Assembly: GCA_019096065.1 (NCBI GenBank) | Contig: JAGUCH010000002.1 | Coordinates: 15,450,501-15,514,500 of the forward strand | DNA length: 64,000 nucleotides | Direction: 5' to 3' | Origin: Paracyclopina nana | Lineage: Eukaryota; Arthropoda; Copepoda; Cyclopoida; Cyclopettidae | Shown: piece by piece, positions 20,535-42,828 of the stretch | Position numbering within the stretch: the first letter of the stretch is position 1 | Layout: each line of letters opens with the position of its first letter | Position numbers and translations under genes: made by a program | The notes under the pieces: generated by a model | What the model was told of the DNA's origin: nothing | Database searches by the model: none | The model's input: only the letters and a program-made list of their open reading frames with translations

Positions 20535-20538
20535 GTAG
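20535..20538. repeat. Target-site duplication GTAG (left)
   Basis: The four bases GTAG directly before the left LTR are repeated directly after the right LTR at 43775-43778, as made by retroviral-type integrases. Confidence 0.85.
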
Positions 20539-21463
20539 TGGTGTGCGACGGTCACACCCTCTGAAGCCTAGGATGGTTAGCATCGGCTTCATGGTCGCGG
20601 TACCGTTCGCAGCCTCCGGGTGCTGGCCGGATGTCTACCCGCCTTGGACCCAAAGCCGCAGCCTCGGTGCTCCAACTCTGGCGAGATACATCACATGGCA
20701 AGCTTCAGTGCTGTAGACCTGTGATTGGGCCTCCTATCCAAGTCCTCAGTGGCCTTAACAGCCTCAGGTTAGGATGCATAACTGCCCAGGAAACCTCTAT
20801 ACAAGTTATGGTCGAACAAAATCCATCAAGGTTGTCTTATTCACTCGGCTTTTAACACCACACAAATTAATGGCAGCAAATACAAAGAAATAAGTACTGC
20901 AGTAAATATTCTTGTGGCCATCTTCTTCATGCCTCAGCACACTTTGGAGAACTTTGGTGGGACAATAGCAGGGCAGAGCTCACTCAATGGGCCATGTGCA
21001 CTTGGTCCATGTCTTGTTTCTCTGAAGTCCCCCCTCGAACTCCCCGAGTCTTCTCCTTCTTCTCCACTTCATGCATCGCAGCAAGTTCCATCAGCTTCCA
21101 TCTGCTTCTCTCCGTTATCATGCAGCTGCAGGTCCTCTCTATGTGGCAGCTAGCAACTCCTCCACACAATAGCTAGCAACTTCTCCACTCAAGGTCAGGT
21201 GAATTGCCATAGGTGAGGCTCAATGCATAGGTAGTAGCAGCAGCAGCAGCAACAATCAGAGAGTTGGAGGAGATGAAAAGGTGTTTTTAAGAAAGGAGGT
21301 TTTGTGATTTTGAGGTGGTGATGTAGCGGTGAATGGGCAACCTTCCGGACTTCTGGCGGCTCCACGGGCTCCACGGTTTCCACAGGTTCCACTGGAGGGG
21401 TCCAATCAAGTCCTATTCTGGTCGTAACGTGCACCAGAGACATGATGTACTTATTGCCCATCA
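20539..21463 (-). repeat. 3' LTR (element sense)
   Basis: 925 bp, TG...CA. Overlapping translated stretches covering most of it are identical to those of the 42850 copy. Contains (CAG)n-like AGCAGCAGCAGCAGCAAC near 21236. In sense orientation it follows the env-like stop by 103 bp. The preceding purine run (GGGCCGGGGAA) is a weak polypurine tract. Confidence 0.93.
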
Positions 21464-21566: not shown

Positions 21567-23453
21567 TTATACTAACGTCGCGCCTCCCAGGCCACCCATT
21601 CGCACAGTAAGGCGCTGATTTTGATCAGCATCTTTCTTGCGATCTCCTCTATTGTAACGAAGCCGTGAGCGGGACGTATTAGGTCTCACATAGCCTCCAT
21701 CATCATAACATCGGCTGCATACTCGCCGCCTTTTCCAAATCAGTATGCCCATACACGTGAATCCTAGTGCTGCAGACAATAGGCTCACCGTCAGGATTAT
21801 TTCCCAATTATTGAATAAACCTCCAAGTTCATCTTCAGGGAATTTTGTAAAGAACTTCACCATATCACTTTCCCAAGGAGAGTCCTCGTATCCAGTACTT
21901 TGAGTTCCAAGGGAAACCTTACAATTGCTAAGGATCTGATAGGATCCTGGTTCCAATACCATCGAGTTCTTGAAGTCATTTAAACAAGTCCTATTAATCA
22001 TTGCACTTGAGACCAAATTTAAGAACCCTTTATAATTTGCACATCCCACATCAGTGAGCGTGTTAGTTTTAAGTGGCTCTAATTCACAGGCGTCAAAAGG
22101 GTCACCCAGAGCTAGCCCTAAAAGTACTTTAGCACAGTGTTGGACCCCTTCTGTCAAGTCAAAGTCCTTGTTTTCACACACAGTTAAATTATGGTCATGA
22201 ACGAAGCAATCACTATAGATGGGTATTTCTCGAGACACAAACACTAGATCATTTCGGCGGGTCAAATACCTATCATGCAGTAAGAATCCGTTTTTGCTTC
22301 GTGACACAATATGATATGTGACCTCAGGGGTAGGGTCCATTTCTTTATACCCAACTATTCCCTGAGTGACAAAGTCTCCACTCTGCTCAGTGTTCGCCAA
22401 AGGTTCATAAACATTAGTAATAGTGGCCGCATTTCTGTCACTATTATGCGCCAGAGTTGGTATGCTGAACCGTGTGCCTGCCTGTCCAAAATTTCTGGCA
22501 AATTGCACAACTGTGTCAGCATATGACAATACTTGCTGCAGATCATTTGGTATTAATCCAGACTTCAAAAAGACCTTGCTAAAACCTTTCAATAGTCGAA
22601 AGGCCAAAGAAACTTTCGGTGGTACTCTCAGTGGAGTGGTATTTGCTATCATGCCATCGGTGAATTTTGTCGATTTACCTGATTCTGCTAGGGCCATCAC
22701 GGCGTTGTAGGCTTTTTCAAGGAAGCTTTTCCTCCCAGACAATTCAGATTTGACAAAGTCCTTATGGGTGATGACAAAGTCATTTTGGACACATATTGTT
22801 GCCTTCCCATCACTGTGTGGTGCATGGGCTTTAACTGACGTCATGGTCCTCGGCCCTTGTCCCACAGTGAAATACCCCGTGATACACGGGTAACCTGCAA
22901 TTATCTCATCATCCGGTTTTTTCTCATACCCCACTTGAGGAAATGTGGTTTTCCCATCCAAGGACATAGGTACCTCATTGACGATCCGAAACTTTACACA
23001 TAAAGTTACCTTAGTGGCAAGAGGGCTTTCCTTTGCCGTATAACGTAATAGTTCTAGAAAAACGTCCATGTCTTCATAAGTTTTAGGGGCAAATGGTACA
23101 AACCCTTGACGTTTGGAACAAGCTTTGTCGATGGTGTTAGGGGTACTCTCTTCGCCAACTGCCAACATATTCCCAATATGGACCAAGTCCTCCTTGTCCT
23201 TGACTTCTTTTACCACGGTGTCAATATTATTCAGGACGCCAATTGTTGATTGCAAAAGGCCACTGTAATCCTTCGTATCTAACACCATAGCCTTTTTCAC
23301 CATTCTAGGATGATGGACCACTCTAACTGGAACTAGGGCATGTCCGGAATGGCAAAGTGCCTCATCCAGTACGAACTGAGTGTTTGGGTAGTTGGACAGG
23401 CCCCAAGTGCCAGATCCCAAAAGGGTGAGTATGAAGACCAATTCAAACAACAT
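21567..23453 (-). CDS. Envelope-like type I membrane glycoprotein, 628 aa
   Basis: Putative env-like surface protein of the retroelement; family not recognised. It starts at a real ATG with a clear signal peptide (hydrophobic LVFILTLLGSGTWG, cleavage near residue 19). The ectodomain of about 530 residues has many cysteines and N-glycosylation sequons (NTT, NLT, NRT). One membrane helix lies near residues 548-573 (ILTVSLLSAALGFTCMGILIW), followed by KRRR and a tail of about 50 residues. I see no dibasic furin-type site followed by a fusion peptide, so a baculovirus-F-like origin is not supported; a class III or other glycoprotein is possible. It sits directly upstream of the 3' LTR, the usual env position. 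A GGTAAG lies just before the ATG; expression by splicing is likely but the acceptor is unknown. Confidence 0.75.
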   Translation of the reverse strand: MLFELVFILTLLGSGTWGLSNYPNTQFVLDEALCHSGHALVPVRVVHHPRMVKKAMVLDTKDYSGLLQSTIGVLNNIDTVVKEVKDKEDLVHIGNMLAVGEESTPNTIDKACSKRQGFVPFAPKTYEDMDVFLELLRYTAKESPLATKVTLCVKFRIVNEVPMSLDGKTTFPQVGYEKKPDDEIIAGYPCITGYFTVGQGPRTMTSVKAHAPHSDGKATICVQNDFVITHKDFVKSELSGRKSFLEKAYNAVMALAESGKSTKFTDGMIANTTPLRVPPKVSLAFRLLKGFSKVFLKSGLIPNDLQQVLSYADTVVQFARNFGQAGTRFSIPTLAHNSDRNAATITNVYEPLANTEQSGDFVTQGIVGYKEMDPTPEVTYHIVSRSKNGFLLHDRYLTRRNDLVFVSREIPIYSDCFVHDHNLTVCENKDFDLTEGVQHCAKVLLGLALGDPFDACELEPLKTNTLTDVGCANYKGFLNLVSSAMINRTCLNDFKNSMVLEPGSYQILSNCKVSLGTQSTGYEDSPWESDMVKFFTKFPEDELGGLFNNWEIILTVSLLSAALGFTCMGILIWKRRRVCSRCYDDGGYVRPNTSRSRLRYNRGDRKKDADQNQRLTVRMGGLGGATLV

Positions 23454-23690
23454 CTTACCAGCACAAATTCTGATCAGAAACTATATGGGCCCCAAGACTG
23501 CTAACTTTCCTTATAAACCCAGACAAGTGTGGGCACGCCACCTTACTATGTCTAGACACTCTTTGCTTTTTTCCATTGGTTTTTATTATCATAGCATGTC
23601 GACATGTATGGTGAAAAGTTAAGAGTATTGGCCCACAACCAAGTATTTTATCAATATGTACAATTCGATTCTGAAGGGTAATTTCATTTT

Positions 23691-25067
23691 TCAGAACTGC
23701 CCGACAAATCCATTAATCGCCTCAGTGAATACCTTGATGTCGCTGGGGGTCATTTCCTCCATTTTAGCTTGGAGGAGATAGTTCACACGTTCCTTATTCT
23801 TATCGACTTTGGAGCGCTTAGCGTGCAATATGTCTGGTCCATTCGTTCCTGCGCCAAAAGGGCGCCCGCGCGCTACATCGGCGTACAGTCTAGGTCCTCG
23901 CCTTGGTTTTTGTTGCCAAGACTTCTCCACAAATGCGGCTAGTTTTTGGGGCCTGGCCCCGGCTGTGTACCTCACGCATTGCGGGTACGTTCCAATGGCT
24001 CGATCAACAAACTGGGCTACCATGGTAGGCAGGAGTGCGGTCATATCGATCTTCACGTCCAATTTTCGTGGTGCTTGGGCCACACCATTGTTAAGGCAGG
24101 ACGGCGGTCCCACATACAGTTGCAAGTAAGGTGACGTCAAATCATGGAACATCCGCGGATCCCAAAATGATGAGTCCAATGTTGGCATGATCTGAATGCA
24201 GCCTCGCTTGGTATAATGTTTGGAGACTACTACAGGGAGTTGAGCTCCACCCTGTCCACGGATTCCATGAACATAATACCCAACAGCTGTTGGGCTCTGG
24301 ACGGCAGACCAACTCCTGACATTGGCCAACTTATGGACATTCTCGTCATATTCCATCTTGTCAGGCAAATTGTAGACTGGTAGATTGTCTAGCATCGGAA
24401 ATATAACAAGAAAATCGGGAATCTCCCCTCCTTTACTCACTGGCTCGATAATCAATTCAATGCAGTCAAAGTTTTTCACCTTCAATGGCCTACGAGGCTC
24501 GGTCCGTTCATAGGGTTCTCCATTTATCCTAATCGTTAGGTCAAAAGGCACCTCCTTTCCAACAGTCATGACCTCTTTCGTAGCTATCTTCAACAGGCTT
24601 GCATCATAATGCTGCTGTATAGTAGCTCTGGTCCGGCTCGCCTCCCTCGCATAGGCCTGTAGACCCTCCATGTGGGGAGGCCTGATCAAATCCTCAAATG
24701 GCAATGGGTACCCCAAACTGGAGGATACCCTTTCCAATGGGACCTCGAGGGGTTCCTCTTGGTCCTGGTGCCTAGTCGTCTGATTCTGGGCTTGGTTCTC
24801 AATATTGGCAGCAGGCATGTTGCGATCCATAACTGGCTCATCATCCTTTAGGAGCTCACTAACCTCTTGTTCGTTGAACTCTCCAGTCTTATCAGTCTCC
24901 ATCATAGAGACCAATGCAGATTCTCCTTCCATGGATTCGGTGATCAGAGACATCCTTAGATTATCGAGGCTATTCAAGCTATCGCTCATTTCCAGACTGT
25001 TGCTGTAAGGCCGTAACCTGCCCTTTTTATACGCATCTTTACAGGTATGCCCCACACTCTCGGGCAT
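23691..25067 (-). CDS. Retroelement ORF of unknown function, 458 aa
   Basis: Intact ORF from a real ATG. The N-terminal 140 residues are acidic and Ser/Glu/Gln-rich and probably disordered. Residues about 170-360 look like a compact beta-rich domain with aromatic and proline-rich turns (VPFDLTIRINGEPYERTEPR, PYLQLYVGPPSC, LDVKIDM). The C-terminus is basic (KPRRGPRLYADVARGRPFG). No signal peptide or membrane helix. It lies between the antisense gene block and the env-like gene, in the same direction as env. A structural or matrix-like role is conceivable for an extra virion protein, but nothing in the sequence proves it and I recognise no family. Confidence 0.65.
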   Translation of the reverse strand: MPESVGHTCKDAYKKGRLRPYSNSLEMSDSLNSLDNLRMSLITESMEGESALVSMMETDKTGEFNEQEVSELLKDDEPVMDRNMPAANIENQAQNQTTRHQDQEEPLEVPLERVSSSLGYPLPFEDLIRPPHMEGLQAYAREASRTRATIQQHYDASLLKIATKEVMTVGKEVPFDLTIRINGEPYERTEPRRPLKVKNFDCIELIIEPVSKGGEIPDFLVIFPMLDNLPVYNLPDKMEYDENVHKLANVRSWSAVQSPTAVGYYVHGIRGQGGAQLPVVVSKHYTKRGCIQIMPTLDSSFWDPRMFHDLTSPYLQLYVGPPSCLNNGVAQAPRKLDVKIDMTALLPTMVAQFVDRAIGTYPQCVRYTAGARPQKLAAFVEKSWQQKPRRGPRLYADVARGRPFGAGTNGPDILHAKRSKVDKNKERVNYLLQAKMEEMTPSDIKVFTEAINGFVGQF

Positions 25068-25353
25068 TTAAATGCGTGGGTTGTCCCTTTTAAAAAACCC
25101 AAGGTCATTTTTTGTCTAGGTAAAAAAGAACAGGGTAACAGGACTTATACCACTTCCTTATAAGATGGGCGCGTGCGCGCACGCTCATCGTCGAGTTGCA
25201 CGGACATTTTTGACTTCCTAGGTCGAGAAACGTAGCGAGGGTGCAACAGGCAGTTGCAACTCTCAGCTTTCACTTAATGTTGATCATTCTCCCATCGGAC
25301 TTCGTCCAAGCTGGTCACTTTTCTAGAGATATTCCAATCCCAATCAACTCGCG
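25068..25353. promoter_or_regulatory. Divergent promoter region inside the retroelement
   Basis: 286 bp between the start codons of the 458-aa ORF (-) and antisense gene A (+). It holds a TTATAAGA box at about 25158 and a perfect 14-bp CG-rich palindrome GCGTGCGCGCACGC at 25171-25184, the only such CG cluster nearby. The head-to-head layout suggests shared control, but promoter activity is inferred. Confidence 0.4.
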
Positions 25354-26405
25354 ATGGTCATTTTAGCCTGGGTTTCTCTAACTCCAGAGGGCAGCTCTAC
25401 AGAGGCTCCCACTGAGGCTCCAATCCAGCCATCAACGGTGGATCCTGCGCTAGTGGATTCTCAAACCACGGGCCCAGTAGGTCCTACTGTTGCTATTCCT
25501 GAGAGTGGCATTTCTGAAGCCAAGGGTGGACCTGGATTTGGCCCAGCTCCTGTCGACCCCTTTGAAGTGGAGGTGTTTGACCCCCGAGATTTAATGCCAG
25601 CGGTACCAAATGGTTATCGTCCCATTGCCCCTCAGAGGGACTGGATCGAGGAAATTTTCAATTACCACCGATACGGTGTAATGGGATGGATCGGTCTTGG
25701 AGCGTCCATTGGGATGGCTTTGGTAAGTTCAACCTTATAGCTAGTTTTGCAACTATGGCCAAACTTTTATTTACCACCTTCTTTCTTACAGATTTTGCTT
25801 GGCATGTTGGTGTACTTCTGCGTGTGGACGTCACGATGGTGCCGAAGGTTCGTGGCCACGTTTCGAGCTATTCGTACGGAGTCATCGACTGCAAGTGGAG
25901 CCATGCAAATGCTTCCAACAAAGGCCCCATCAGAGCATGCAGCGGTATTTCACTGCTGTACCCCAGAGGTCCGAGCTTTGCCACCAGCCCCGATTATGCG
26001 TGACCCTGACGTCCATTCGCTCCAAATGGCAATGGCTGCCATGGACCCCTATGGAACACTACGCCGGAATCCCAGCATCATGTCCGGGCTGGCCCACATC
26101 TATGACGTCCCTAATCCCAAGGGCTGGGTAAGGACCTATCAATTTATGAACTGTAAACAGGTTGCTCATGTACTCTTTTTCATGCACCTTTTCAGGTACC
26201 TGTTACTGAAGGGTGCGGACCGCGGACTTTGAAGAGACGATCTCGCCGGGCTCGAGCCCGAGATAACCGTCGCTTGGATTCGGTAGCGGGGTCCATTCCG
26301 GACAAAGAAGAAGTCAATGAGGCTGAACCTCTCTCCATCGAAGATGAGGACCAGGATTCAGCTGGATCAAAGGCTTCCCAAGACGTCAACAGCGATGCCA
26401 ACTAA
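25354..26405 (+). CDS. Antisense spliced gene A: single-pass membrane protein
   Basis: Lies on the strand opposite to gag-pol inside the retroelement. Exons 25354-25722, 25792-26127 and 26196-26405, with introns GTAAGT...TTACAG and GTAAGG...TTTCAG, both phase 0, giving 304 aa. The N-terminal 100 residues are Pro/Thr/Glu-rich (STEAPTEAP) and end in an RDWIEEIF segment. One strong membrane helix spans about residues 110-135 and crosses the first exon junction, which argues for real splicing. It is followed by a basic patch (WCRRFVATFRAIR), a proline-rich middle, an Arg-rich run (KRRSRRARARDNRR) and an acidic tail. A poly(A) signal is at 26726. Function unknown; family not recognised. Codon structure is clean with no internal stop. 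Confidence 0.68.
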
Positions 26406-26725: not shown

Positions 26726-26731
26726 AATAAA
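26726..26731 (+). promoter_or_regulatory. Poly(A) signal for antisense gene A
   Basis: AATAAA on the plus strand 321 bp after the gene A stop, supporting transcription against the retroelement. Confidence 0.4.
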
Positions 26732-26906
26732 GAATTCGAATTCAAGTGGGGTAGCAGGTATTAGCGAGGCCGTTACCTTCATCTAACAGCGCTCCCAGAC
26801 TTCACGTAGAGGCGCGTATTAAAAAGAGGCCTTTTTACACGAAATTTGGCCGATTTCGGACCGGATTCATCTGGTAGCGCGCCTTGTTTACTAAAAAGTT
26901 CAAAAC

Positions 26907-27442
26907 ATGGCGGGCTTCCTTCACGGTTTGTTCGTAAGTTTTTATTTCGAATCGAATCCGTTGAATCCTTTCATAAAACTGTATCTTTTCATTGGGAATG
27001 TAGAATCCTTCAACCACAACGGTGGCACCGGCCACCGAGGCTCCCGTAGGGGCGCCCCCCGCGGCCGAGTCCGCGGCGGGGTGGCCCCAGCCACCTGCGG
27101 CCCCGCCCGCAGCCCCTTTGGGCAACGAGGAGGCGTGCCCTCCCTGCCCCGTTCAGGGCTTCGTAAGTGCACTTATTCGTTATCTATTTGGTCAAAGCTC
27201 GACTTTTTCTCGTATTACAGGCCGAAGAGATCCTCTAGGGCGTGGCCCTGAACGTGGCAGGGGCGGCCACCTACTATTTGGTGGCCTTGCCCGCCCTCGC
27301 CTGGGTCCACCGGACCAGGCCCAGGGGCCTGTATCGGCTCGTCAGCCGGGTGTGGGACGAGCCCACGGATCTGCCCAGGGTCTCGGCCTGGGTCCTCCAC
27401 CTGTTTGTGGGGGAGGAGGACCCCCTCGAAGGAGTCGTCTAG
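26907..27442 (+). CDS. Antisense gene B: GC-rich diverged paralogue of gene A, with in-frame UAG
   Basis: Putative exons 26907-26933, 27004-27162 and 27221-27442 (introns GTAAGT...TGTAG and GTAAGT...TTACAG). Layout parallels gene A: a Thr/Pro/Ala-rich N-terminus (VAPATEAPV against STEAPTEAP), an EEI(L/F) segment, then a hydrophobic helix (VALNVAGAATYYLVALPALAW) and a basic stretch. The frame is interrupted by TAG at 27236-27238 between EEIL and the helix. Open reading resumes and runs to TAG at 27440. Another donor/acceptor pair (27441 to about 27503) and an AATAAA at 27607 follow. G+C is far above the neighbours. It may be a pseudogene, a readthrough gene, or two ORFs. Homology to gene A rests on layout and short motifs only. 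Confidence 0.4.
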
Positions 27443-30400
27443 TAAGTCTAACTTATTCATTTAAGCTATCACAGCTTCACTATATTCGCCTTATCTTTTG
27501 CAGAACTCGTCTCGTTATCGGTAGGCCACCGCACCGGCCAGGGCTGGCCCCAACGTGGCCCAAGGCCAGCCCGCCCCCACCAGCCAGGAGGCCTCCCTTT
27601 CGGGACAATAAAGTCCACGTGCCTAATACTTTTTGTGTCTACTGTGTTTACCGCAACTCATTTCGCGTTTACCTCAGCAGATAGCTCAGCCTTATGAAGC
27701 TCAGCACCTTTCTAGTCAAGTTCAGCAGTTCATTATCATAGCCAAGCACATTTCGAGTCCAATTTTTTACATTTCATGGCCAAAAGGACCGTAGACCATA
27801 TCTCAGGTGTCAAGAATTGCATTTTAATTGCATAATTAATCATTAGCGAATCATTAGCGGCCCAAATCCACAGATTCGGGCCTGTAAATAAGATAGCATT
27901 CCAGCTCGACCTTGACGGCCTTGACACTGCAAACGATGCTTCAATGTTCAAGAAAAGCGTTTACTATAGCCCTGCATTCCAGCTCGGGCTTGATGCAGCA
28001 CCATATTTGAGTGTCTGCGATTACTACCGGCCAAGCGTTGGTGCTTATGGGCTACCAATGCCAATTTGGCATCCTTTTTTCCTTGGGCATTCCTGCTCGG
28101 CCTTGAGTGCGGCGAAGGAAACGTAGTCCCTACAGGACTGGAAAACCGGCCGTATGTCATTGCACATAGCAAAAGCAAGCTCAAGCACTAGGCAATGGCA
28201 CAATATTCTTTTCCATATCAGGCTAGAAGACGTGTATTTTTCATTTTCTCACATGTCAGTCTACAATGTGTGCTGACCTAGCTTGTTTTGCTAGTGCTGT
28301 GTTTAGCGTAAATTGAATTCTCCACCAAAAAAGAGGGGATTCATGTGGCAACTGCAAGATAGCCACATTTCAGCACTTCTTTTATTTAACAATATGCCTA
28401 ATCTTTGTGCACTTTGAACCTTCTCTTCTGTTAGTCCATCTGGCGATCATTAGCGGTATCATTATAACATTAGTCATTTTCATTCTCTTGACTTTTATGC
28501 AACGTTTGATTTTATTCCTTGTACCCGCATAATAAATCCCGGAATTTGGGTCACCACTCGAGCCAAGTATGGCCATTTTTGAGTTTAGATAAGTTCAAAA
28601 ACCTTCCCAGGTGAATTGTAGGTGCACCGGCGGTTCCAATCTTCATTGTTCGTTTTAGCCTTGGGCAAAACGTTTTTAGTTTGTGGTTAGGCGCGTGGTG
28701 GCGCCACCATTCTACATCTCCAAGCGAAGCCGCTCAAACTGGATTTTTCTAGTGTGGGAGCGTCTCTGGATTTTTGTTCCATAACAACTTTTTGCCCCCC
28801 TTGGAGTCGGGTATCTGTTCAACAGAAACTGGCTCAGCGTCTTTGCGCCATGCAACTCACATTTCAGTCTATCTTGCTCAAATGTTTTTTGTCTAGCCAT
28901 TTTGAACAGACTCATCGATTACGTTTTTATCTGTTATCACTGAATTGCATAGCTATTATAGCTCTGCATTCCAGCTCGGTCTTGATGCGTGCATCAAGTT
29001 CGGGTGCTCATGACCGAAATTAATTTAAAAGATTGAGGTTATCAGCACCGATCTTTTCAGCTAATTTCGGTTAGCACTAATAATAAGATCCATAAAGCAA
29101 ATTTTGCACCTTTATGTGCTAGTGTTCAGATTTATAGTTTTTGTGGCACTTTGCCATTTCCAGTTTTATCTAGAAATTTTGTTTACAATACTTTCTCAGA
29201 GCGCGAGTGCGCTCAAAATTTGTGAAATTTTTGGGGCGCAGGCTGCATTTCCTGCGGCTACGTATATATACTCCCCCCTCCACAATTTTCTGCATTTTGT
29301 GGGAACTGTAGTGAGCAGTCACACAAAATTCAGGTAAGTATGTTTTCGAATCTTTAACTATAAAAGATTTAGCAGCTAGGCTAATTTTATTCAATTTTTT
29401 ATTTGAACTATGGCGCCCGTGGGCACCCTCCATGATATCAAAAACCTAAATCGTGCCACTGTAAGGAAGGAAGGTCGGCACATACTAAATTTTATTTTTA
29501 TTTAGAATTACGATTTCCAAAACAAGTGCAGTTGTCACACATAGACTGTTGTGGCAATCGAACTTAAAATGGTATTTTATGGGGAAACACTTGTTCAACC
29601 CCCAAAATACCCCAGTGGTATCCAAAGCTGAAGAATTCACCAGCATATAGGATTTTTGTTGTCTTTATTAGCCACAAGGGAGCGGCCTATTCCAATAGAG
29701 AGTGGGTCCCCACATATTGTTGAGGCAAGAAGGCCATAGTTTGGGCTGATTATTCGCCCAGGCACAAAGCTGTACTTAGTATTTCAAAATCCCTTTTAGG
29801 GAGATGAATCCCATTTTTGTACAGATTTCCATGTTCCATTCTACTCAAAGTCCGGAGGCGCCACGACCAGGCCTGCAGTTCGAACCAGGTCATGGTCCAG
29901 ACACTCTGATATTATAGGCACAGTAGTCGCTACACCCGAGTTTTTATTTCGTGGCATGTACTACTATGATATTGGTATCGTTTCCATGACAGAACAATTT
30001 AAATTCATAGTCATTCTTTTTATCAAAGCTCATTCCTCATTTCGGAGGGTGGGCAAGTTTTTCTAAATTCTTCTGAGATTTTCTAAAATCTTTCCAAGAT
30101 TTTATAAAGTAATGCGGCCAACACAAGTCTTCCCACGTATTGTGAGGTTTTATTGTGTCCCACTTGCACAGTGCCTAGGGCCAACTTTTGCTGTACTAAG
30201 GTACGAATGTCCCAGTAACTATCGACTCACGTGAGGCGTGGAGTGGATAATGGTTCTTGGACATAGCTCAGTGGAGCTTTAACCATAGTTTTCAAAACAT
30301 ACCTATTCAGATGGGGCATTTGCCCCTTTGGTATTACGCCCATCTGCAACTTCCCTCTTGCATGGCGTGCTTGTAGTACTTTACTTTAACTAACAGTCAA

Positions 30401-31031: not shown

Positions 31032-33053
31032 CTATTTAAACTTCTTAAAAGCTAGCTTGTATAGTTCATCATAGGTGAGACGCAGCCGCTTCATTTCATT
31101 TATGTTGCTATCATCTTGGTGATCCATGCCAGTCGCTTTAAGAAACTGAATATAATCAGGGACTGCAGCCATGTTTTTATTCAGTTTCCAATTAGGAATT
31201 ACCTCTTCTAGTAACTCTCTCTCTTTTTGGTCAGGCCTTTCTTTCGTATTTGTAAACCTAACACGGGCGAATTCCTTGTCCTCCCAATCTAAAGGAGCTA
31301 TTCGTGGAATATTAGGAAAGTATTTTTGTTCTTTACCAGTTTTGCTTTTCTCTTTCTCATACTTTCTTATGCCCGCTAACTTCCTGTAATCTACAGTTCC
31401 CTTTCTCTCCCGCAGTTGTCGCCTGGGAAGGATCCGTATTGGAGTGGGCTTACTGATTTCGGGATCAACTGCTGATTGAGCAGCGGCCGAAGCCTCTGGT
31501 TCATTTGGTTCAGCAAATGCTGTGGTTGCCGAGCTACTCGGTTGGTCCGAGGACGCCACAGGGTGCGTGTCTGGAGGCTGTTGGACAGCCCGAGGACTAG
31601 TCTCTTGTTCAACTGTCACTGCTACTTCCGGACGAGTCAATGCTTCCGGAGGATCAGGCTGAGCAATCGCAGGAGGACCCGCAGGTACGTTATTTTTATT
31701 ATACTCTCGAAACCCTGCCAGGGAGCGATAGTTAACGTTTTTTCTTCTCCTTAGGTTATGAGGAAGAAAACGTAATGGGGACAACTTTTCTGGTTCATAA
31801 GGAGCTCGTACAGCAGCCTCAGGTGGTTTCTGAGTACCCGGTTGTGGAACTACAGGGCTAGTTTGCATGACAGTGGGGCGTGCAACCTCAGGAGTAGCTT
31901 GATGAGCAAGGTGCTCCTCAGTCATAGCCGGGTCACCCAAAGGTGTAACATCTGCTGAGGAGTGCTCAAGTACGTTCGTGCTTGGCACAATTTGTGGTAC
32001 TCCCACATTAGGTAACTCACTAGGACTTGGTTGCAAATCAGGTTTTCTTACTGGACTTTTCATTACAGTGTAACGAACTTGTGGCTCTCCTCCTTCAGCT
32101 CCGTAAATCTCCGGTTTCGGGGCACTGGGCCCTTCCATAGGATTATCGATTGGTGGAGAGGGAGGCCGTTTACGTGGTGAGAGTTCTAACTGGCGTCGTA
32201 CAATATCGATTGCTTTTTGAACATTCTGTTTAATGCTTTTTGTCAGCGGTGTACGCCGCAGATTTTTACGAGCAGTATAATAAATTGTGGTTGTGTCATC
32301 ACTATCACTACTTTCATTTTCATCGTCGTGTGTATTTCCGCCGAATGGATCAGTAGGCAGTGCTAATTGCATACTTTCCAGGCCAGCAGATAAAGATTCT
32401 AGGTCAGTGTCAAATTTGGAAGGTGCGATGAAAGATGCTGCTTTTTCAACAACCTCCTCTATTTTATCATTGTCCTTATTAGGAGTTGCGGACATACTTT
32501 GGTCAGGAGTGTGATATTTCTCCGGACTTTCAGGTATATCTGGCACACGTTGATCACGGTATTGGCCACGAAAGGCCCACTTTACAGGGCTGACCCCTGC
32601 AAGTGTCCCTTCACTGACGTTCGAGCGATCAGGAGTACTAATATGGTCAGGTTTGACACTTGGTAAATTCGGGTATAACCGTTCTTGTTGGGCCATTTCA
32701 GCAAAAGTCGGAGGGCCACGTTGGCTTAAGGCCAGCATGTCCTCATAAAATGCTTCATTGGGCCCTGTATTTGCACTTAGTGCAATTGCTTGTTCAATAA
32801 AATCATCAGTGTCAGTCTCCGACAAAGATGCACTCGTATCTTTTTGCGCATTGTTATTAACGGCATTGTTAGCTAGGTATTTTTCTTCTAACTTTTTACG
32901 ATCATATTGTTCCCATTGCTTTTGCACGAGTTGCTTATTTTCCTCCTGTATTCGCAAAATATCTGAGGGCTTAAACAAGCTCGCTGCCTTTTGCATGAGA
33001 ATAGAACCAGAGCGCTTATAGGTTTGGTGAATCGCACTTGGCTCTGTGTCCAT
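31032..33053 (-). CDS. Retroelement ORF3: proline-rich, basic protein with duplicated module
   Basis: 673 aa from the first ATG (33053); the same frame is open without ATG up to 33221 and overlaps the end of pol, in the +1 frame relative to it. So the protein may be made by splicing, frameshift or internal initiation. It is largely low-complexity (Pro, Ser, Glu, Thr). Two copies of a basic module are clear: PLRFLPHNLRRRKNVNYRSL (about 31697-31790) and PIRILPRRQLRERKGTVDYR (about 31345-31450), each continuing as LAG-(F/I)-R-x-Y-x-K. A KRPPSPP patch after a basic helix-like segment (IKQNVQKAIDIVRRQL) lies near 32180. No membrane helix. A nucleic-acid or chromatin binding role is a guess. Family not recognised. 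Confidence 0.7.
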   Translation of the reverse strand: MDTEPSAIHQTYKRSGSILMQKAASLFKPSDILRIQEENKQLVQKQWEQYDRKKLEEKYLANNAVNNNAQKDTSASLSETDTDDFIEQAIALSANTGPNEAFYEDMLALSQRGPPTFAEMAQQERLYPNLPSVKPDHISTPDRSNVSEGTLAGVSPVKWAFRGQYRDQRVPDIPESPEKYHTPDQSMSATPNKDNDKIEEVVEKAASFIAPSKFDTDLESLSAGLESMQLALPTDPFGGNTHDDENESSDSDDTTTIYYTARKNLRRTPLTKSIKQNVQKAIDIVRRQLELSPRKRPPSPPIDNPMEGPSAPKPEIYGAEGGEPQVRYTVMKSPVRKPDLQPSPSELPNVGVPQIVPSTNVLEHSSADVTPLGDPAMTEEHLAHQATPEVARPTVMQTSPVVPQPGTQKPPEAAVRAPYEPEKLSPLRFLPHNLRRRKNVNYRSLAGFREYNKNNVPAGPPAIAQPDPPEALTRPEVAVTVEQETSPRAVQQPPDTHPVASSDQPSSSATTAFAEPNEPEASAAAQSAVDPEISKPTPIRILPRRQLRERKGTVDYRKLAGIRKYEKEKSKTGKEQKYFPNIPRIAPLDWEDKEFARVRFTNTKERPDQKERELLEEVIPNWKLNKNMAAVPDYIQFLKATGMDHQDDSNINEMKRLRLTYDELYKLAFKKFK

Positions 33054-33186
33054 TGATGTGGACTGTGAAATCAATGAACTTTGCGAGGCCACTATACTAG
33101 AGGCCTTTGTATGACCCCGCAAACTATAATCATGACTTTCAGGGGCTGCCCCTTCAAGAAATTCAATAACCTCATTCCTTGCTTTT

Positions 33187-36100
33187 TTACGTAGAATTTC
33201 TTTCTGGAGTGTAAGGTCGTTTCAAGAGGTTGGACAACTTTTCCGGAAGAAATCTATATAGTTCATGGAATCGGTATAACTTTACATGATCTAAGCTTAC
33301 TTCACGAGTAAGCCCATCATAAAGATACGGCTTTACAGTCACAGTTGAATGCTGTCCAATGTCTATGACTTCAAATAAATCATCCATAAATTTATACCGT
33401 TGTTTATTTATGGGGTGTTTTATAACCAAAACTAAAGATCCAATCTCAGGTTTAAAGGAAGGCCTTTCAGTAGCCTTCATTTTTTCTAAGTGGAACTGTT
33501 CTTCTAGATCATATTCGCGCATGCGTTGACGCCATTCAGCTTTATGAATTTTGTCCTCGCTTTCACTAAGTATTTCAAACACATCCCGTCCTAAGTGATA
33601 GAACGGCATTTTGTCGAAAAATAATGAGAAAGGGGTGGGGGTGATCTTCACCCCTTTATCATCAGTATATGCCAAATAAGTAAGAGGGCGGTTATTTATT
33701 GCGTAAATAGAAGTCTTAAACACATCGCATAACTTCATATTGTATGAGTTCGAGTTTAAGACTAATGCACTCCTTATTATTCGTATAGCATTTTCAGCGT
33801 AAGCGTTCGAATGCTTGTATGGCGATAAAGTTCGGTAATGACATAACTCCTTAATTTTATAACGATCAACAAGGCGTTGGAGGGCCTTATTAGTCGTTAG
33901 CTGGGCACCATTATCTGCAAGTAATGTTTTTGGCACCCCAAACAAAGAAATTACTTCTTCCATAGCATTCGCTACCTGCTTATATTTAGCATCCAATAGT
34001 GGTTTAGCAATTATCATCTTAGAATAAACATCGACAAATACTAACAGGTCTTTCGCGGAAGACCCTTTGACTAAAGTGTCATCGAACTTGGCCAAATCAA
34101 TCATTACCAATTCCCATGGCTGAGTCGGGATGCGGAAACGCCCCTTCCCAACAAACCTAGTATTAGCTTGGCGGTATAAAGCACAATGCATGCACGCACC
34201 AATAATAATACGACTGATTCTGGCTGAGTAAGTTGAATACATAGATTGAGTAAAAAGGGTATTGGTCTTTTTACTCCCCAAATGGTTATGTAACAGATGA
34301 ATACATGCCATAAGGTACACACAGTTAGGCATACTCATATACACTTTTGTATTAGTAGCAACACTGAAGGGTAACTTTACATTCTTGCGTATAACCAACA
34401 AGGCACCATCAAGAACTCGGTATTTTACCGCAACATCTAATGGTACTTTCTCAGGAGGCGAAAGCATAATTAAATTTATTATCTTTTGTGTTTCTTCACA
34501 ATTTTGTTGCAACTTAATGAGTAGGTTGCGTGTAATTCCTGGTAAATGTGGCGATATTCGCCGTTTAACCGTTACTGTATCTACTCTTAAGTTATTTTCT
34601 ATATGATTTACTGGTGAGTCAAAATCAGCTTCCCCATGAAACGAATGAGATAGTTTTGAAAGTATCTCGTCCTCAAGAAATTCATCATCATCATGTTTTG
34701 CTTGAAGTAAGGTTGACGTGTCGTCGTGCACAAATGGCGGCTTCGTGCCGATCATGTCAACCCATTTGTCATTTAGGCAATGCAACCTTTTCTGGAGTAG
34801 AGTCTTACTCATAGTTCCAGAATTCACAAGTGTATCATACACGTGTGTAAGTAATTCCTGGGTTGTAAGCACCTTATCTTTGATCGCATCGGGTAGAGGG
34901 TATTTATTTGAATAAATATCCTTAGTAATCTGCCCCGCAATAGAGTAGGGTGCATAAAATACAGTTTCGCCTTCTGGCGTTTGATGGTATTTATTTAATA
35001 ATACATCTACTACTTCTACCTCTGTGCGAGGTACAGCCCTCAATTTCCATGCTACAGGCAGGGAATAAATACGAGCTGCTAGTCTATGAGTAAATGCATC
35101 TTTACCAGTAAACGAACTAGCCAGCACGCTGGCTATTGATAGACAGTCCGTAACTATGACTAATCGCTCATAGGCGAATAGTATACTTTTAAAATGATTT
35201 ATCATTGTTAACACTCCTAATGCTTCACGTTGAAACGAGTGGTACGAGAGGCAAACTGATAGAGGGAAGCGTGCGCTGTGTGCACCAACACACACAGCTT
35301 TCCCATCCTCATTTACCTCCATTAATAAAGCTGAGGTGCTTATTACCCCTGAGTCAACCACTAAATAACCTTCTTTAAAACGTGGCAATGCCAGCGACAT
35401 ACCTGTTTTAATCTCATCTATTACTTTATAGAAACATTTTTCTTGGAAAGCAGTGAAGGTGAACTTTCCTGTTTTCCCTTGTGCTGTTTGTAATACATCT
35501 AGCAGTGGGGCTGTGTATGTAGCCATATTAGGGCAATACTGGCTTAACCAGTTTGTCATCCCAATAAACTTTTGCAGCTGTTTCTTGGTTGTAGGAATAG
35601 GGAAATCATCAAATGCAGACCTGAATTTATCGGGCATTCGCATAGTCATAATCCCATTTTCATCAATAAATATTAGGTGCCCTAAGACTGTAGCTTCTTT
35701 AACACCTAATTGCGTCTTTTTAATTTGTAATAGGGCATTTAAGTCCTTGAGGCTTTGAAACAACTTCCTCAAATCACCTAAATGTCGTATGTAATCGTCC
35801 AATGTAGCAGGCCTAGGCTTGCCAGGGTTCTTACAGGCCACGACCAAATCGTCTACATATACACATGTAAAGGGCAATATCTCAGGGTTAAGGGCCTGTT
35901 GGAGGAGCTCTGCGAACATTCTCGGAGCAATGGCGATCCCTTGTAGGCATGACTTACTTTTCAAAAAGACTGATCTATATATACTGCGAGGGGACGTTAC
36001 TGCGAAGCAGCACATATCAGCACTATCAGAGTCCACAGGTAAGTTATCGTATCCGGATGTCACATCAAAAGATGACATCAAACATGAATTAGATAACATC

Positions 36101-38805
36101 CCTAGCAAGGTAGGGATAGGTGGCACTATGTGCTCTGAAGTCGTAAATATCAGATTTTTATTAAAAGATGTTAAGTCAACTAGTAGCCGAGGCTTGCGTT
36201 GCTTCATAGGCAGCTTTTCATCATTTGGCCTTGAAGTCAAGAAACAAGGGCAAGCCGAGTACCTATTAAGTGACTTATCCACAATCTCAATTAATCCAGA
36301 TGACAGCATTAAAGCTATTTTACGGTCAACCTGGGTAGTTTCATACTCTGACATGTTAAATACTTTTGGCACTAATGGTTTATCGTCCTTTAGCTGGAAC
36401 TTCATGGGTTCAACATTCCATAGCCTATATGATCTAGGGTCCTCCGAGAATATAGTCTTATATTCTATTAAGAGGTCCCTAAAGTCCTCTCTAACTTCAT
36501 CCGGAATGTGTTCTAGGTCCATGTTCAGGATCGTTTCTGGTTTCAATGGAAATGTGTAACCTGCTACTCCATTTAAAACACGGAGAGGGTCAAATTCACT
36601 AGGGAATTTCAAAAGGAGATTATAAACCTCATCATATAGTTTTTGGTTATTTCTCTCATCCTTAGAAAGCTCCAGGCTAGCTGATACAAGGTCTAGTTCA
36701 GAAGGGCTTTTCAGGACTGTTTGCCTGATACTGGTATCAACAATAGGACCTTCATAAATAGTAGTGAAGCTTTTAAGTGGCACTTTGATGCCCATGTTCT
36801 TTGCCAAGCAAGGCTTGCATGAGCAACCATGTGGTTCAAGTACAAAAGGTATAAATTTACCAAATTTTGTCTTTATATCCTCTTTGGTAAGGTCATCAGG
36901 GTACATTTGTAACCCAGATAACACTAGCAATGCAGCGGTGGTTGCCATACAAAGTGGGTCACCTACATGCACGTCACCATCCATAAGTGTTCTAATCCAC
37001 ACATCGTCAGCTACATTTTGGTATCGTAATTGACCAATTATTATGTACATAAGTGTGGTTAGGTAGCCAACATTCTCTGCATGTTCGCTAGGGACATGGA
37101 ATATTAACTCAACATTGTTGGACAACTTAAACATGATACCATGAGCTCCAAGAACGTTTAGTTCAAAATACTTATCTAGTTCATTTCTTTGATAAGCAAG
37201 TGGGTAATTCTCATACTCATGTATCATCATAGTTATTATGACCCTATCCATCCCATTGAGGTAGGATTCAATAGGACACAAGGCAATGGTCATACATGGT
37301 GGGCAAATATACTTATATTTTAGCCATACTACTTTAAGTTTATCCACCATCATATTCATCTTTATTACAATGCGCTTTTGTTCGCCAGACAAAAGTTTAT
37401 GTCCTGGGACAATAACAGCCCATGGTAATTCATCCCATTTTTCTCGTTTCATAAATTTGCTAATTATCACATCAGTTATCTCTTCGTAACCGTCACTTTG
37501 GTTAGCTGAGATAAATACGTAATTTCCTTTTCTACTAATCATAGGCTTGTGGCTTCCCCTTAATGGCTCATAGGCATTGAAAAAATGCATATCAGTAAAG
37601 GAAAGTCCATTTATATCAGTAAACTGCACAATTACGTGCGAATCTAAATAATTGCAGTAACATGACTCCATCTCATGCTCCAGAGCCTTTAGACTAATGT
37701 TAGCCACATGGGCTGCAACCGTACTTTTAAACTTCTGTTTCTTGACAATCCTGGCTCGCCCAATCACTGCATGTGCATTTAAGTAGATGGGATCCTCAGT
37801 ATTATTCCCAATATTTACTGGGAAAGTACCTTTACGAGTGACTGCAGTAAGTGCCCCCTCAGAGGTCACTCCGCGGTACTCGTTACTAGGCATAAAGTTT
37901 AAGTACTTATCCACCAATCCGGAATAAACATTTCTCTGGTGATGAGTACGACCAAGGTCGTCATCTTCGTCAGAGTCAGAATCTATTTGGATGTCATTAC
38001 TGATGACAGGTAAATCATGAGGTAAACTAGCCATGGTGGTCACTTCTTCTCCAGGGAGTAGAGTGATCCCTTCATTTATTGCCACTGGGTAGAAAGCCTC
38101 TTTTGATAGTAAGAGTGGAATTTTCTTATGTTTGGACTTTCCAGGGAAATCCATAAAGTGCTTTCCATCTTTACTAGTCATCCGGACATTATTGTCCACT
38201 AATAACGAGTTTCCTATCATTAATAGTGTATCGCAATCAGATACAAGGAAAACAGCCTGTCTGATTAAAACACGATTCCCAAATGCAACTTGAATAGAGA
38301 CAGCTTCATTCCCTGGGAATTCTTCCCCATTAAAGTTCTTAATTACATAATTAGTTTCGACCCGAGGTAGAGTGTAACCAATTTTGTCTTCGATCAGTTT
38401 TACAAGAGTGCGTGATATTATCTGCACCATTGCTCCACTGTCAAATAAAGCATGCAAACGTATTTTTCCAGTTATCTCCACTGGTATAAAATACCTTTCA
38501 CAAACATTATGTAGTTTTAATGAGTATATACTCAGCACGTCATCTTCAAGTTCCGGATTCGGTAAAGGTTCAAAATGTGTTACTGGCTCTGCTTCATTAG
38601 CATTTACTGAGGCCAGATGTGTAACGATACCATCATTACTACAAGTTTTTTGCTCATCACTCGTGCTACCTTTTACAAAGTAGTACCATAAAGCTATTAT
38701 TGCTCCACTACAGATTACTGTAATTGGCCAATAATCCCAACCAAATAAGCAATATTGACATATTGTTATTGCAAACAGTATTATGCTAATCTCAATTACA
38801 GTCAT
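33187..38805 (-). CDS. pol: Pol polyprotein (protease, RT, RNase H, integrase), 1872 aa
   Basis: Replication polyprotein of the retroelement. Two hydrophobic segments lie at residues about 4-22 and 27-44. Aspartic protease DSG is at about 122 (ALFDSGAMVQIIS). After a long unassigned region of about 550 residues comes reverse transcriptase (about 800-1010; SFDVTSGYDNLPVDSDSA, catalytic YVDD). The Gypsy-type connection FIGMTNWLSQYCPNM follows, then RNase H (acidic residues in VVDSG, QREAL, VTDCLS) and integrase with HHCC finger (HNHLG, CMHC) and DDE residues in MIDLAKF, LADNGAQ and YAENAIR. A C-terminal GPY/F-like tail ends the protein. No internal stop. Pol has its own ATG 36 bp after the preceding small ORF, in a different frame from gag. 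Confidence 0.93.
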   Translation of the reverse strand: MTVIEISIILFAITICQYCLFGWDYWPITVICSGAIIALWYYFVKGSTSDEQKTCSNDGIVTHLASVNANEAEPVTHFEPLPNPELEDDVLSIYSLKLHNVCERYFIPVEITGKIRLHALFDSGAMVQIISRTLVKLIEDKIGYTLPRVETNYVIKNFNGEEFPGNEAVSIQVAFGNRVLIRQAVFLVSDCDTLLMIGNSLLVDNNVRMTSKDGKHFMDFPGKSKHKKIPLLLSKEAFYPVAINEGITLLPGEEVTTMASLPHDLPVISNDIQIDSDSDEDDDLGRTHHQRNVYSGLVDKYLNFMPSNEYRGVTSEGALTAVTRKGTFPVNIGNNTEDPIYLNAHAVIGRARIVKKQKFKSTVAAHVANISLKALEHEMESCYCNYLDSHVIVQFTDINGLSFTDMHFFNAYEPLRGSHKPMISRKGNYVFISANQSDGYEEITDVIISKFMKREKWDELPWAVIVPGHKLLSGEQKRIVIKMNMMVDKLKVVWLKYKYICPPCMTIALCPIESYLNGMDRVIITMMIHEYENYPLAYQRNELDKYFELNVLGAHGIMFKLSNNVELIFHVPSEHAENVGYLTTLMYIIIGQLRYQNVADDVWIRTLMDGDVHVGDPLCMATTAALLVLSGLQMYPDDLTKEDIKTKFGKFIPFVLEPHGCSCKPCLAKNMGIKVPLKSFTTIYEGPIVDTSIRQTVLKSPSELDLVSASLELSKDERNNQKLYDEVYNLLLKFPSEFDPLRVLNGVAGYTFPLKPETILNMDLEHIPDEVREDFRDLLIEYKTIFSEDPRSYRLWNVEPMKFQLKDDKPLVPKVFNMSEYETTQVDRKIALMLSSGLIEIVDKSLNRYSACPCFLTSRPNDEKLPMKQRKPRLLVDLTSFNKNLIFTTSEHIVPPIPTLLGMLSNSCLMSSFDVTSGYDNLPVDSDSADMCCFAVTSPRSIYRSVFLKSKSCLQGIAIAPRMFAELLQQALNPEILPFTCVYVDDLVVACKNPGKPRPATLDDYIRHLGDLRKLFQSLKDLNALLQIKKTQLGVKEATVLGHLIFIDENGIMTMRMPDKFRSAFDDFPIPTTKKQLQKFIGMTNWLSQYCPNMATYTAPLLDVLQTAQGKTGKFTFTAFQEKCFYKVIDEIKTGMSLALPRFKEGYLVVDSGVISTSALLMEVNEDGKAVCVGAHSARFPLSVCLSYHSFQREALGVLTMINHFKSILFAYERLVIVTDCLSIASVLASSFTGKDAFTHRLAARIYSLPVAWKLRAVPRTEVEVVDVLLNKYHQTPEGETVFYAPYSIAGQITKDIYSNKYPLPDAIKDKVLTTQELLTHVYDTLVNSGTMSKTLLQKRLHCLNDKWVDMIGTKPPFVHDDTSTLLQAKHDDDEFLEDEILSKLSHSFHGEADFDSPVNHIENNLRVDTVTVKRRISPHLPGITRNLLIKLQQNCEETQKIINLIMLSPPEKVPLDVAVKYRVLDGALLVIRKNVKLPFSVATNTKVYMSMPNCVYLMACIHLLHNHLGSKKTNTLFTQSMYSTYSARISRIIIGACMHCALYRQANTRFVGKGRFRIPTQPWELVMIDLAKFDDTLVKGSSAKDLLVFVDVYSKMIIAKPLLDAKYKQVANAMEEVISLFGVPKTLLADNGAQLTTNKALQRLVDRYKIKELCHYRTLSPYKHSNAYAENAIRIIRSALVLNSNSYNMKLCDVFKTSIYAINNRPLTYLAYTDDKGVKITPTPFSLFFDKMPFYHLGRDVFEILSESEDKIHKAEWRQRMREYDLEEQFHLEKMKATERPSFKPEIGSLVLVIKHPINKQRYKFMDDLFEVIDIGQHSTVTVKPYLYDGLTREVSLDHVKLYRFHELYRFLPEKLSNLLKRPYTPERNST

Positions 38806-38840
38806 AGTATGCTGATGGACAAACCGACTTTTTCTACCCC

Positions 38841-39029
38841 TTATTGCAAGGACCAGAGCCTTTTTGTCCTCACTTCCACAGTCATAATTTCGGCATTTTT
38901 CACAGATTGCTCCTTTAAATAATCAAAGTAAGCTCGTCCTACTTCTTTGTTACATTCTCCCCTCATAAATGAAGGCAAGATGTAACTATCTTTATCATTC
39001 TTATTGGGAGTTTTTGTACTTGGTCCCAT
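38841..39029 (-). CDS. Small ORF between gag and pol, 62 aa
   Basis: Its ATG overlaps the gag stop by one base (TAATG), a layout used for termination-reinitiation in some viruses and retroelements. The product is hydrophilic and basic (KTPNKNDKDSY, VRTKRLWSLQ) without recognised domain. It may be a translated relay between gag and pol, or part of a pol frame reached by recoding. Not proven to be expressed. Confidence 0.4.
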   Translation of the reverse strand: MGPSTKTPNKNDKDSYILPSFMRGECNKEVGRAYFDYLKEQSVKNAEIMTVEVRTKRLWSLQ

Positions 39030-41593: not shown

Positions 41594-42828
41594 TCTTATC
41601 TTGTAAAAAGCGTGACGGAGTCACACGAAGTATTTCTTATCTCTTAGAGGTGCAACGGAGTCACACGCAATATTCTGGTCTTAGTACACTACTGTGTGTA
41701 CTAAATTCGGTAATACCGAATTAAAAGCTATACGCTGTTCAAAGCACAGGGAAGCTTGTCCTAATTACTACGCCGCGTCAAGTGACACAGAGGAAAAGGT
41801 TGCAGTTGCTAAGCTCGTTTATTTATTTTTTGTCAAGGCTATGAGCGGCCAAGACAAAACACACACACAAACGCACGCACAACTACCCACACTCACTTAT
41901 TACAATATAAAAGATGGAGTAAAATTTGGCACTACTGGTGCCAACAGGTGTATGGATGGTAATTTCTTCTAAGTCTCTGAAACAAAGGTGCATCAACTTT
42001 TTACGCAAAAAAGGTATGCCACTTCGCCAACCAGTGTCGACTCAGTGAATGAAAAAATAAAAGTTTGCCCACTCCTCCTCGAGTTGCGGGCCGGCCAACC
42101 TTCCCAGTGCCCTCGGCAACTTGTCCAAGGTTAGCCAGTTTTTTGGGCCCCAAACACGCATTTTCCTTTGTGGCTCCCACTCTGGCTCCACGCGTGGCCT
42201 ATTTGGGGTTCATTGACTCGCAAGTCATGGATTACATCATCTTCTTCCATCTGTGTGGCCAAACCCACGGACGAGACCCACTAGTGTCGCAACACTCTTG
42301 CGCTCACTCGCCCCATAATGGATAGGCAACAGAGGCTCAGGTCGCAACCTGCACCTTGGCTGGCTTTCCGGCTGCCATGGCACCCATACTCCAAGCTATG
42401 CCATGCGGAGCCTGCACGCATGCATTCACCTCCGGGAAAGACAGTGTCATTGTTACTTTGTGTAGGCCCATCATCATAACAATGGTCCATGGAAGACATC
42501 ATCAACGGGCTGGTGGTACGTCACGGCCTGTACCTTATTGCACTCCCCGCGCGCCAGTTCCAACCCGCCAACGGCATCAATGCGCAATTTGGGTCTAAGG
42601 GAATCTAAAGCCTACGCACCACATAGGCCCAAATGCCATCGGAGTGACCCCCATCGGCTCGTCAGCCTTCGGGATTTTTCTTTTGTACTGTATTGAACAC
42701 ACCCTGATCGCAATCAGCGTGCGGCCCAACCTGCACCGCAGAGCAGGAATCCTGATCCACACCAAGACATTTTCCGGGACTTCATTGTATTTTGGTCATC
42801 AAACCTTTAGGAGAGAAAGTGGCCTTCA
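41594..42828 (-). other. Retroelement 5' leader
   Basis: 1.2 kb between the primer binding site and gag. A short direct repeat with core CAACGGAGTCACACG / GTGACGGAGTCACACG lies at 41608-41668, and an (AC)n tract near 41862. It probably carries packaging signals and the major splice donor, which I cannot place. Confidence 0.6.

Follow-up and report, generated by a model that had tools for sequence, protein, structure and literature searches.

Two spliced antisense genes for predicted membrane proteins in an envelope-bearing LTR element of an arthropod

Each round of copying should cost an LTR element its introns, a loss that genes placed antisense escape. Can such an element then keep spliced genes of its own? 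The question is raised by a locus in the window (the whole stretch of 64,000 nucleotides that was analysed), where an earlier note had described, opposite to the genes of a retroelement, an intron-containing gene for a membrane protein. We report that two neighbouring antisense genes, with short GT-AG introns and one membrane helix each (borderline by score in gene 2), lie in this arthropod LTR element, which is Ty3/gypsy-like and bears env, and that both are found under purifying selection and in two element families.

Results

The host element

The element is 23.2 kb long and lies on the minus strand of the window; copies were searched for in the 92 Mb of the genome (10 contigs). The host is placed among the arthropods by 80 matches to Chitin_bind_4, a family of arthropod-type cuticle proteins; a nematode host was considered and rejected, nematode cuticle collagen having given 0 matches in a search run without a positive control. 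A GTAG target-site duplication, read by eye, flanks it at 20535-20538 and 43775-43778. Its sense parts are as follows.

42850..43774, minus strand: 5' LTR, 925 bp, TG...CA, 100% identical to the 3' LTR
39029..41620, minus strand: gag-like ORF, 863 aa between stops, presumed gag from its position
33187..38922, minus strand: pol with protease, RT, RNase H and integrase (Ty3/gypsy-like), from Pfam domains
31032..33221, minus strand: Pro-rich ORF of 729 aa, sharing 35 nt with the end of pol
23691..25067, minus strand: ORF of 458 aa, divergent to gene 1
21567..23453, minus strand: envelope-like glycoprotein, 628 aa, with a C-terminal membrane anchor (by eye)
20539..21463, minus strand: 3' LTR, 925 bp, identical to the 5' LTR

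Within pol, RVT_1 (7.6e-13) was the sole domain over its Pfam cut-off; rve (4.2e-7), RNase H and Peptidase_A2B were detected below theirs, and the RT region had 18 relatives at E <= 1e-5, 21 to 29% identical. Judged by a PR-RT-RH-IN pol placed between LTRs and by the target-site duplication, the element is classified as Ty3/gypsy (Metaviridae-like). The gag-like ORF had no significant match in Pfam, and no family was found for the 729-aa ORF in Pfam or NCBIfam. Beyond the latter extends a 6-kb stretch without any sense ORF longer than 105 aa.

The 458-aa and env-like ORFs occur in two element families (42 to 45% and 44% identical, respectively), without convincing relatives in the libraries tried. 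Neither protein matched a Pfam or NCBIfam family or a single-sequence PDB relative, and two peptide patterns for each retrieved no relatives from IMG/VR. The 458-aa ORF had no match among PDB profiles; the env-like protein had just four weak ones, to unrelated molecules (E 0.027 to 0.3), and no relative by shared words among 5.8 billion proteins.

Two features of the surroundings were also recorded. A 374-nt inverted repeat, 100% identical, flanks the element on both sides (15557-15930 and 58213-58586). On the plus strand, 48968-55948 holds an ORF of 2326 aa between stops that looks, by eye, like a helicase with NFX1-type zinc fingers; it contains a 339-nt tandem repeat (53200-54535) whose units are 94 to 98% alike.

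Gene 1 has two introns and encodes a predicted membrane protein

The gene described by the earlier note, hereafter gene 1, has this structure.

25354..25722, plus strand: exon 1, Pro/Thr-rich ectodomain and first half of the membrane helix; pN/pS 0.30
25723..25791, plus strand: intron 1, 69 nt, phase 0, within the coding sequence of the membrane helix
25792..26127, plus strand: exon 2, second half of the membrane helix and cytoplasmic tail with YGTL and YDVP; pN/pS 0.13
26128..26195, plus strand: intron 2, 68 nt, phase 0
26196..26405, plus strand: exon 3, Arg-rich and acidic tail, stop included; pN/pS 0.17
26726..26731, plus strand: AATAAA downstream of gene 1, read from the sequence

The proposal that three exons with GT-AG borders join in one frame into a membrane protein proved exact in its coordinates, the joined frame being 304 aa long. 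It had also been noticed that the membrane helix is created across the first junction, and indeed neither exon 1 nor exon 2 makes the helix without the other: the best 19-residue Kyte-Doolittle mean is 2.21 for the joined sequence and 0.82 for exon 2 alone, while exon 1 read into the retained intron reaches 1.43 and meets a stop after 5 codons. The description of the gene as antisense to gag-pol holds for its orientation, but there is no overlap with the gag or pol ORFs. Gene 1, which starts about 3.9 kb inside the element from the 3' LTR, sits between the block of gag, pol and the 729-aa ORF (31032-41620) and the block of the 458-aa ORF and env (21567-25067), and no sense ORF of at least 80 aa overlaps it. 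It is thus a conserved coding sequence antisense to gag-pol, located between pol and the 3' LTR, that is, an antisense aORF.

The frame of gene 1 is under selection and its introns are kept

Close copies of this region (95 to 100% identity) were found at no fewer than 40 places, window included. The window and the 20 best-scoring of the 39 others were read, a choice that may bias the intact share upwards. In this set, a frame of 304 or 305 aa is intact in 18 of the 21 copies (L014, L020 and L021 are broken), and all four splice dinucleotides are kept in 21 of 21. Among the 18 intact copies, pN is 0.0151 and pS 0.0762 (pN/pS 0.20), with 50 nonsynonymous changes where random placement would give 80.5 +/- 4.8 (z -6.4). 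The shifted plus-strand frames gave ratios of 1.78 and 2.09. Of the three antisense frames, two gave 1.34 and 2.10, and the last is low (0.26) since it shares its third positions with the gene. By domain, pN/pS is 0.39 for the ectodomain, 0.03 for the membrane plus juxtamembrane segment, 0.16 for the exon 2 tail and 0.17 for exon 3, and the tail core (residues 197-235) shows no amino-acid change at all in the 18 intact copies. Intron and exon DNA diverge about equally among close copies, so the evidence lies in the codon pattern and not in overall conservation. To the eye, these copies (L009-L028 compared with the window) look mosaic, shared variants switching partners along the region, which suggests recombination between copies.

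Eight more diverged loci (L029-L036) also have both introns in place. The frame is intact in L029-L033, has a stop in L034 and is broken in L035 and L036. Between the window and the five intact diverged copies, dN is 0.15 to 0.17 and dS 0.81 to 1.55, giving dN/dS of 0.10 to 0.21; in three of these five, intron 1 is 56 to 62% and intron 2 70 to 76% identical to the window's. The expectation that other copies keep the open frame under selection was therefore borne out in close and diverged copies alike. So was the claim that the introns persist through transposition, both being present in all 41 loci read. Pointing the opposite way, they would not be recognised in the genomic RNA and for that reason would be copied unchanged at each transposition.

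Spliced junctions were searched for in the genome, allowing up to 3 mismatches. No match was obtained with two patterns for gene 1 in the window's family, one for gene 1 in the L045-like subfamily of the second family (see below), or one for gene 2 of the window's family joined through its second acceptor; a control pattern of equal length inside exon 2 matched 48 places. Among the junctions searched there is, then, no intronless copy, in keeping with the persistence of the introns, and no processed retrocopy that would be an indirect sign of splicing.

A second antisense gene lies directly downstream

The earlier note had missed a second spliced antisense gene of 129 aa (26907-27441, plus strand), directly downstream of gene 1.

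26907..26933, plus strand: exon 1, MAGFLHGLF
26934..27003, plus strand: intron 1, phase 0
27004..27162, plus strand: exon 2, Pro/Ala/Thr-rich ectodomain; pN/pS 0.15 for exons 1 and 2
27163..27220, plus strand: intron 2 to its first acceptor (to 27238 with the second)
27221..27238, plus strand: spacer between the two acceptor AGs, 18 nt, reads AEEIL-stop; foldable hairpin
27239..27441, plus strand: exon 3, borderline membrane helix and basic stretch; pN/pS 0.27
27442..27503, plus strand: intron 3, donor right after the TA of the stop codon; GT and AG in 21 of 21 close copies
27607..27612, plus strand: AATAAA downstream of gene 2, read from the sequence

The position of its donor, immediately behind the TA of the stop codon, places intron 3 in the 3' UTR. 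The gene 2 frame is free of stops in 19 of the 21 copies (L014 and L020 are broken), one of the 19, L021, having a stretch in shifted frame. Its pN/pS is 0.24, with 41 nonsynonymous changes compared to 74.9 expected (z -7.0). For exon 3, the shifted frames gave 1.30 and 1.61 and the antisense frames 0.47 (sharing third positions), 1.79 and 1.66. The predicted helix scores 1.57 on the Kyte-Doolittle scale, just under the usual 1.6, and is followed by a basic, amphipathic stretch (K+R 4, D+E 0; moment 0.73). Gene 2 had no match in Pfam.

The two acceptors of intron 2 would give two products. Use of the first would lead to ...AEEIL-stop before the helix, and use of the second to the membrane form. 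The 18-nt spacer does not vary among the 21 close copies. Of the 20 other loci, 19 share it bar one synonymous site, and in L029 the motif was not found. Since selection acts on exon 3 in the frame beyond the UAG, its translation would have to come about through the second acceptor or through read-through of the UAG. We consider it possible that the two acceptors, with the UAG in frame at the second, form a switch between a soluble and a membrane product, operated by splicing or by stop read-through. A read-through signal or conserved RNA structure at this stop was looked for: the hairpin is invariant, but of the 34 pairs predicted over 150 columns just 2 showed changes on both sides, in an alignment of 27 of the 29 distinct sequences (L032 and L037 left out). 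Synonymous diversity in exon 3 is about threefold that of gene 1 (0.25 compared to 0.08), an excess that looks like a different recombination or mutation history.

Across the exons of genes 1 and 2, codon-period polymorphism was clear over most, not all, of the windows scanned, reaching 4.5-fold. The same scan of 27.6-30.9 kb revealed no run of codon-periodic windows that would indicate further antisense genes; one isolated window, at 28726, gave 2.4-fold and the rest 1.7 or less.

Both genes recur in a second element family

In a second family (L037-L048), whose 458-like ORF is 42 to 45% identical to the window's, a homologous antisense gene occupies the equivalent position. It presents, in order, a Thr-rich ectodomain, a helix split by a phase-0 intron, a cluster of Cys and basic residues, YxT[LM] with an RRPL stretch after it, YDVLRP and, beyond another phase-0 intron, an Arg-rich exon 3. 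Since the protein is only 20 to 25% identical to that of the window, the case for homology is made by its position, its intron phase, the helix and the order of the motifs. Whole frames were read in 8 of the 12 loci (L037, L039, L040, L041 and L045-L048); L038 misses 2 nt relative to its close kin, and L042-L044 have their splice sites and an open exon 2. Gene 2 is found in the second family too, shortened in L037, L040 and L041.

Gene 1 and the 458-like ORF travel together. With rows merged into loci, a divergent 458-like ORF lies no more than 5 kb from gene 1 at 56 of 57 first-family loci and at all 16 in the second family. Conversely, among the 458-like loci (from 92 of 111 candidates scored), 72 of 73 have gene 1 within 5 kb, the exception being one decayed locus. 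No internal stop was seen in exon 2, either in 62 rows of the first family or in 16 of the second; four first-family loci are split into two or three pieces, the pattern expected of frameshifts. A host gene as the source was considered and set aside: the sole gene 1 match without a 458-like neighbour is 35 aa long (E 0.048), and a genome search for Commissureless, run without a positive control, found nothing.

Three readings other than plus-strand protein-coding genes could be weighed at this point. That these are chance open frames in a repeat was rejected on the selection counts (z -6.4 and -7.0), the shifted-frame controls and the intact copies; the second family has the same architecture, nothing was found in favour of this idea, and its chance of being right is negligible. 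Coding in the sense direction beneath both genes was set aside, the low antisense ratios (gene 1, and exon 3 of gene 2) being those of frames that share third positions with the genes; the minus strand under gene 1 has no ORF of 80 aa or more, and that under gene 2 has two candidate ORFs, of 81 aa (27215-27460) and 105 aa (26835-27152), counted between stops. Finally, the antisense transcripts might act mainly as regulatory RNA, through dsRNA, silencing or transcription interference, with the proteins secondary. Such roles are discussed for antisense RNAs of other elements in sections of PMC7264820, but in both genes it is the amino acids, as read in the spliced frame, that are constrained, and the introns drift; we regard this reading as very improbable. 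We conclude that gene 1 is, with near-certainty, a gene.

A promoter-like motif precedes gene 1

Upstream of gene 1, the two families share a short motif.

25263..25273, plus strand: TCAGCTTTCAC, promoter-like motif, 81-91 nt upstream of the gene 1 start, in both families

It is exact in 9 of the 13 upstream stretches examined, and the other four differ by one base (first five letters TCTGC in L029, L030 and L035, ACAGC in L043); in L041 the gene start was not located. In the second family it is preceded by CATAAAAGG in four of five stretches and by AATAAAAAG in L037. The motif may represent an antisense core promoter. Transcription of gene 1 would be driven from within the 286 bp that separate it from the divergent 458-aa ORF, and gene 2 would have a transcription start of its own.

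What the two proteins may do

For gene 1, no relative was found among 5.8 billion proteins and no match among PDB profiles. In the second family, the Pfam model of Commissureless (PF15957) matched the membrane plus juxtamembrane segment in all eight proteins scanned, with E values from 6e-6 to 0.15 and scores of at most 26.9 bits, never reaching the Pfam cut-off of 27. Shuffles of this segment from one second-family protein gave no match at E <= 1 in 10 trials. DUF3149 also matched the stretch weakly in seven of the eight (E 0.005 to 0.18), as did SIT and other membrane-segment models (E 0.09 to 1), and none of four proteins of the window's family matched Commissureless. Sections of PMC2583054 describe two conserved stretches in Comm, the membrane/juxtamembrane segment, which is required for association with Robo, and the LPSY sorting signal. 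The resemblance here concerns the former, in the second family only and below the Pfam cut-off, whereas LPSY was absent by eye from seven aligned gene 1 proteins. All seven do have, by eye, a YxT[LM] in the tail, which we take to be a YxxPhi-type signal; it does not fall in one alignment column across the two families, its distance to YDV differing between them. The second tyrosine motif of the window's protein, YDVP, is not of the YxxPhi type.

Our best explanation, which we put forward tentatively and at somewhat less than even confidence, is that both proteins are accessory membrane adaptors and that gene 1 is a cargo sorter. Gene 1 would be oriented with its N-terminus outside and would bind other membrane proteins through its membrane and juxtamembrane segment, its YxxPhi-type tail routing them to endosomes, as Commissureless does with Robo in flies. 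Nef and Vpu do likewise for receptors. Gene 2 may be a smaller partner, made as a short form ending before the helix and as a membrane form, by means of the two acceptors or of UAG read-through. The constraint on gene 1, strongest in the membrane segment and tail core and weakest in the ectodomain, is as expected if the working parts are those in the membrane and the cytoplasm.

The same distribution bears on another proposal, in which gene 1 encodes a mucin-like glycoprotein for attachment or shielding, acting together with the env-like protein at the surface of particles. Its ectodomain is Thr/Pro-rich and the gene adjoins the env module; moreover, ASP of HIV-1 is likewise an antisense membrane protein and does reach the envelope of the virus, as reported in part of PMC10186651. 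The ectodomain, however, is the least constrained part (0.39) and the membrane segment and tail core the most, and a role on the virion seems to us decidedly unlikely.

A further possibility is that contact or fusion between cells is brought about by these small membrane proteins, chiefly by that of gene 2, so that capsids of the element may pass from one cell to the other, a role proposed for sORF2 of Drosophila MDG1-group elements in sections of PMC11952523. Gene 2 is suggestive in this respect, with 129 aa, one borderline helix and a basic amphipathic stretch behind it; insect LTR elements with sORF2 or FAST-like proteins of this kind, short, single-pass and with a basic patch after the helix, are known (same sections of PMC11952523). 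With regard to the FAST/sORF2 criteria, gene 2 has fewer than 200 aa and a basic patch, a helix of 1.57, and an N-terminus outside by the charge rule only. It lacks the MGxxxS/T start, beginning instead with MAGFLHGLF, MAPFLDGFF or the like; in those sections this start is found in 4 of 6 fly sORF2 proteins and served as a search criterion for the rest (PMC11952523). Its ectodomain has about 62 aa compared to about 30, and gene 1 has 304 aa. The candidates reported there are all forward, of 63 to 107 aa (PMC11952523), whereas the present genes are antisense, and the element already has an env-like gene. A fusion role is unlikely in our opinion.

Discussion

If antisense genes escape intron loss, then splicing and alternative isoforms become usable to an LTR element. 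In the element described here this logic of intron escape is realised twice, in an animal, and has been selected across two diverged families; the conserved antisense genes suggest that its back strand is a source of accessory proteins. The adaptor reading can be extended to a fuller account, which we advance with slightly more reserve than its core: a two-gene antisense module, with promoters of its own and transposition-proof introns, would provide a cargo-sorting adaptor and a partner with a conserved soluble/membrane switch, by which the element would manipulate membrane proteins of the host, or its own Env, along a pathway whose timing and control would be distinct from those of gag-pol-env. 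It thereby becomes testable how one DNA copy of an LTR element runs two expression programmes.

Comparison with known systems

The earlier note considered a spliced membrane protein inside an LTR retroelement to be new. The novelty is narrower than that. A literature search by titles and abstract beginnings found no spliced antisense membrane-protein gene in an LTR element, but antisense genes between pol and the 3' LTR are described for plant elements (PMC7264820, PMC11963269), and HIV-1 encodes a membrane protein in antisense (PMC10186651). What appears to be new is the presence of two spliced antisense genes for membrane proteins, kept in one animal LTR element; antisense genes per se are known in plant LTR elements and retroviruses.

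Among retroviruses, HBZ of HTLV-1 is spliced. Both HBZ and APH-2 are transcribed from the 3' LTR and are nuclear, whereas here we find an internal promoter-like motif and predicted membrane proteins. As in the present element, HBZ of HTLV-1 and APH-2 of HTLV-2 are antisense genes, and the APH-2 transcript is spliced, according to sections of PMC10186651. HIV-1 ASP, covered in the same sections (PMC10186651), shares with our genes that it is an antisense membrane protein. It has two membrane domains and lies over env, in contrast to the introns, the single helix and the absence of overlap with a sense ORF of at least 80 aa seen here. For bdelloid LTR elements, extra membrane ORFs are described and no antisense ORF is mentioned in the text consulted (PMC5408684).

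A close parallel is offered by the aORFs of plant Ty3/gypsy elements (gene23 of Grande, RIRE2, TRP28 of Retand), which, in the sections consulted of PMC7264820 and PMC11963269, are likewise antisense to gag-pol, located between pol and the 3' LTR, and kept in most copies. Grande gene23 is transcribed from its own upstream promoter, as stated in those sections (PMC7264820, PMC11963269). The products differ, gene23 being nuclear and TRP28 predicted to bind DNA (same portions of PMC7264820 and PMC11963269). The plant aORFs are described as ORFs, the word 'intron' being absent from either main text (PMC7264820, PMC11963269), while here two spliced membrane-protein genes stand beside an env-like gene. 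To the unexplained antisense genes known from plants, the present element adds a counterpart from an animal, one that encodes membrane proteins.
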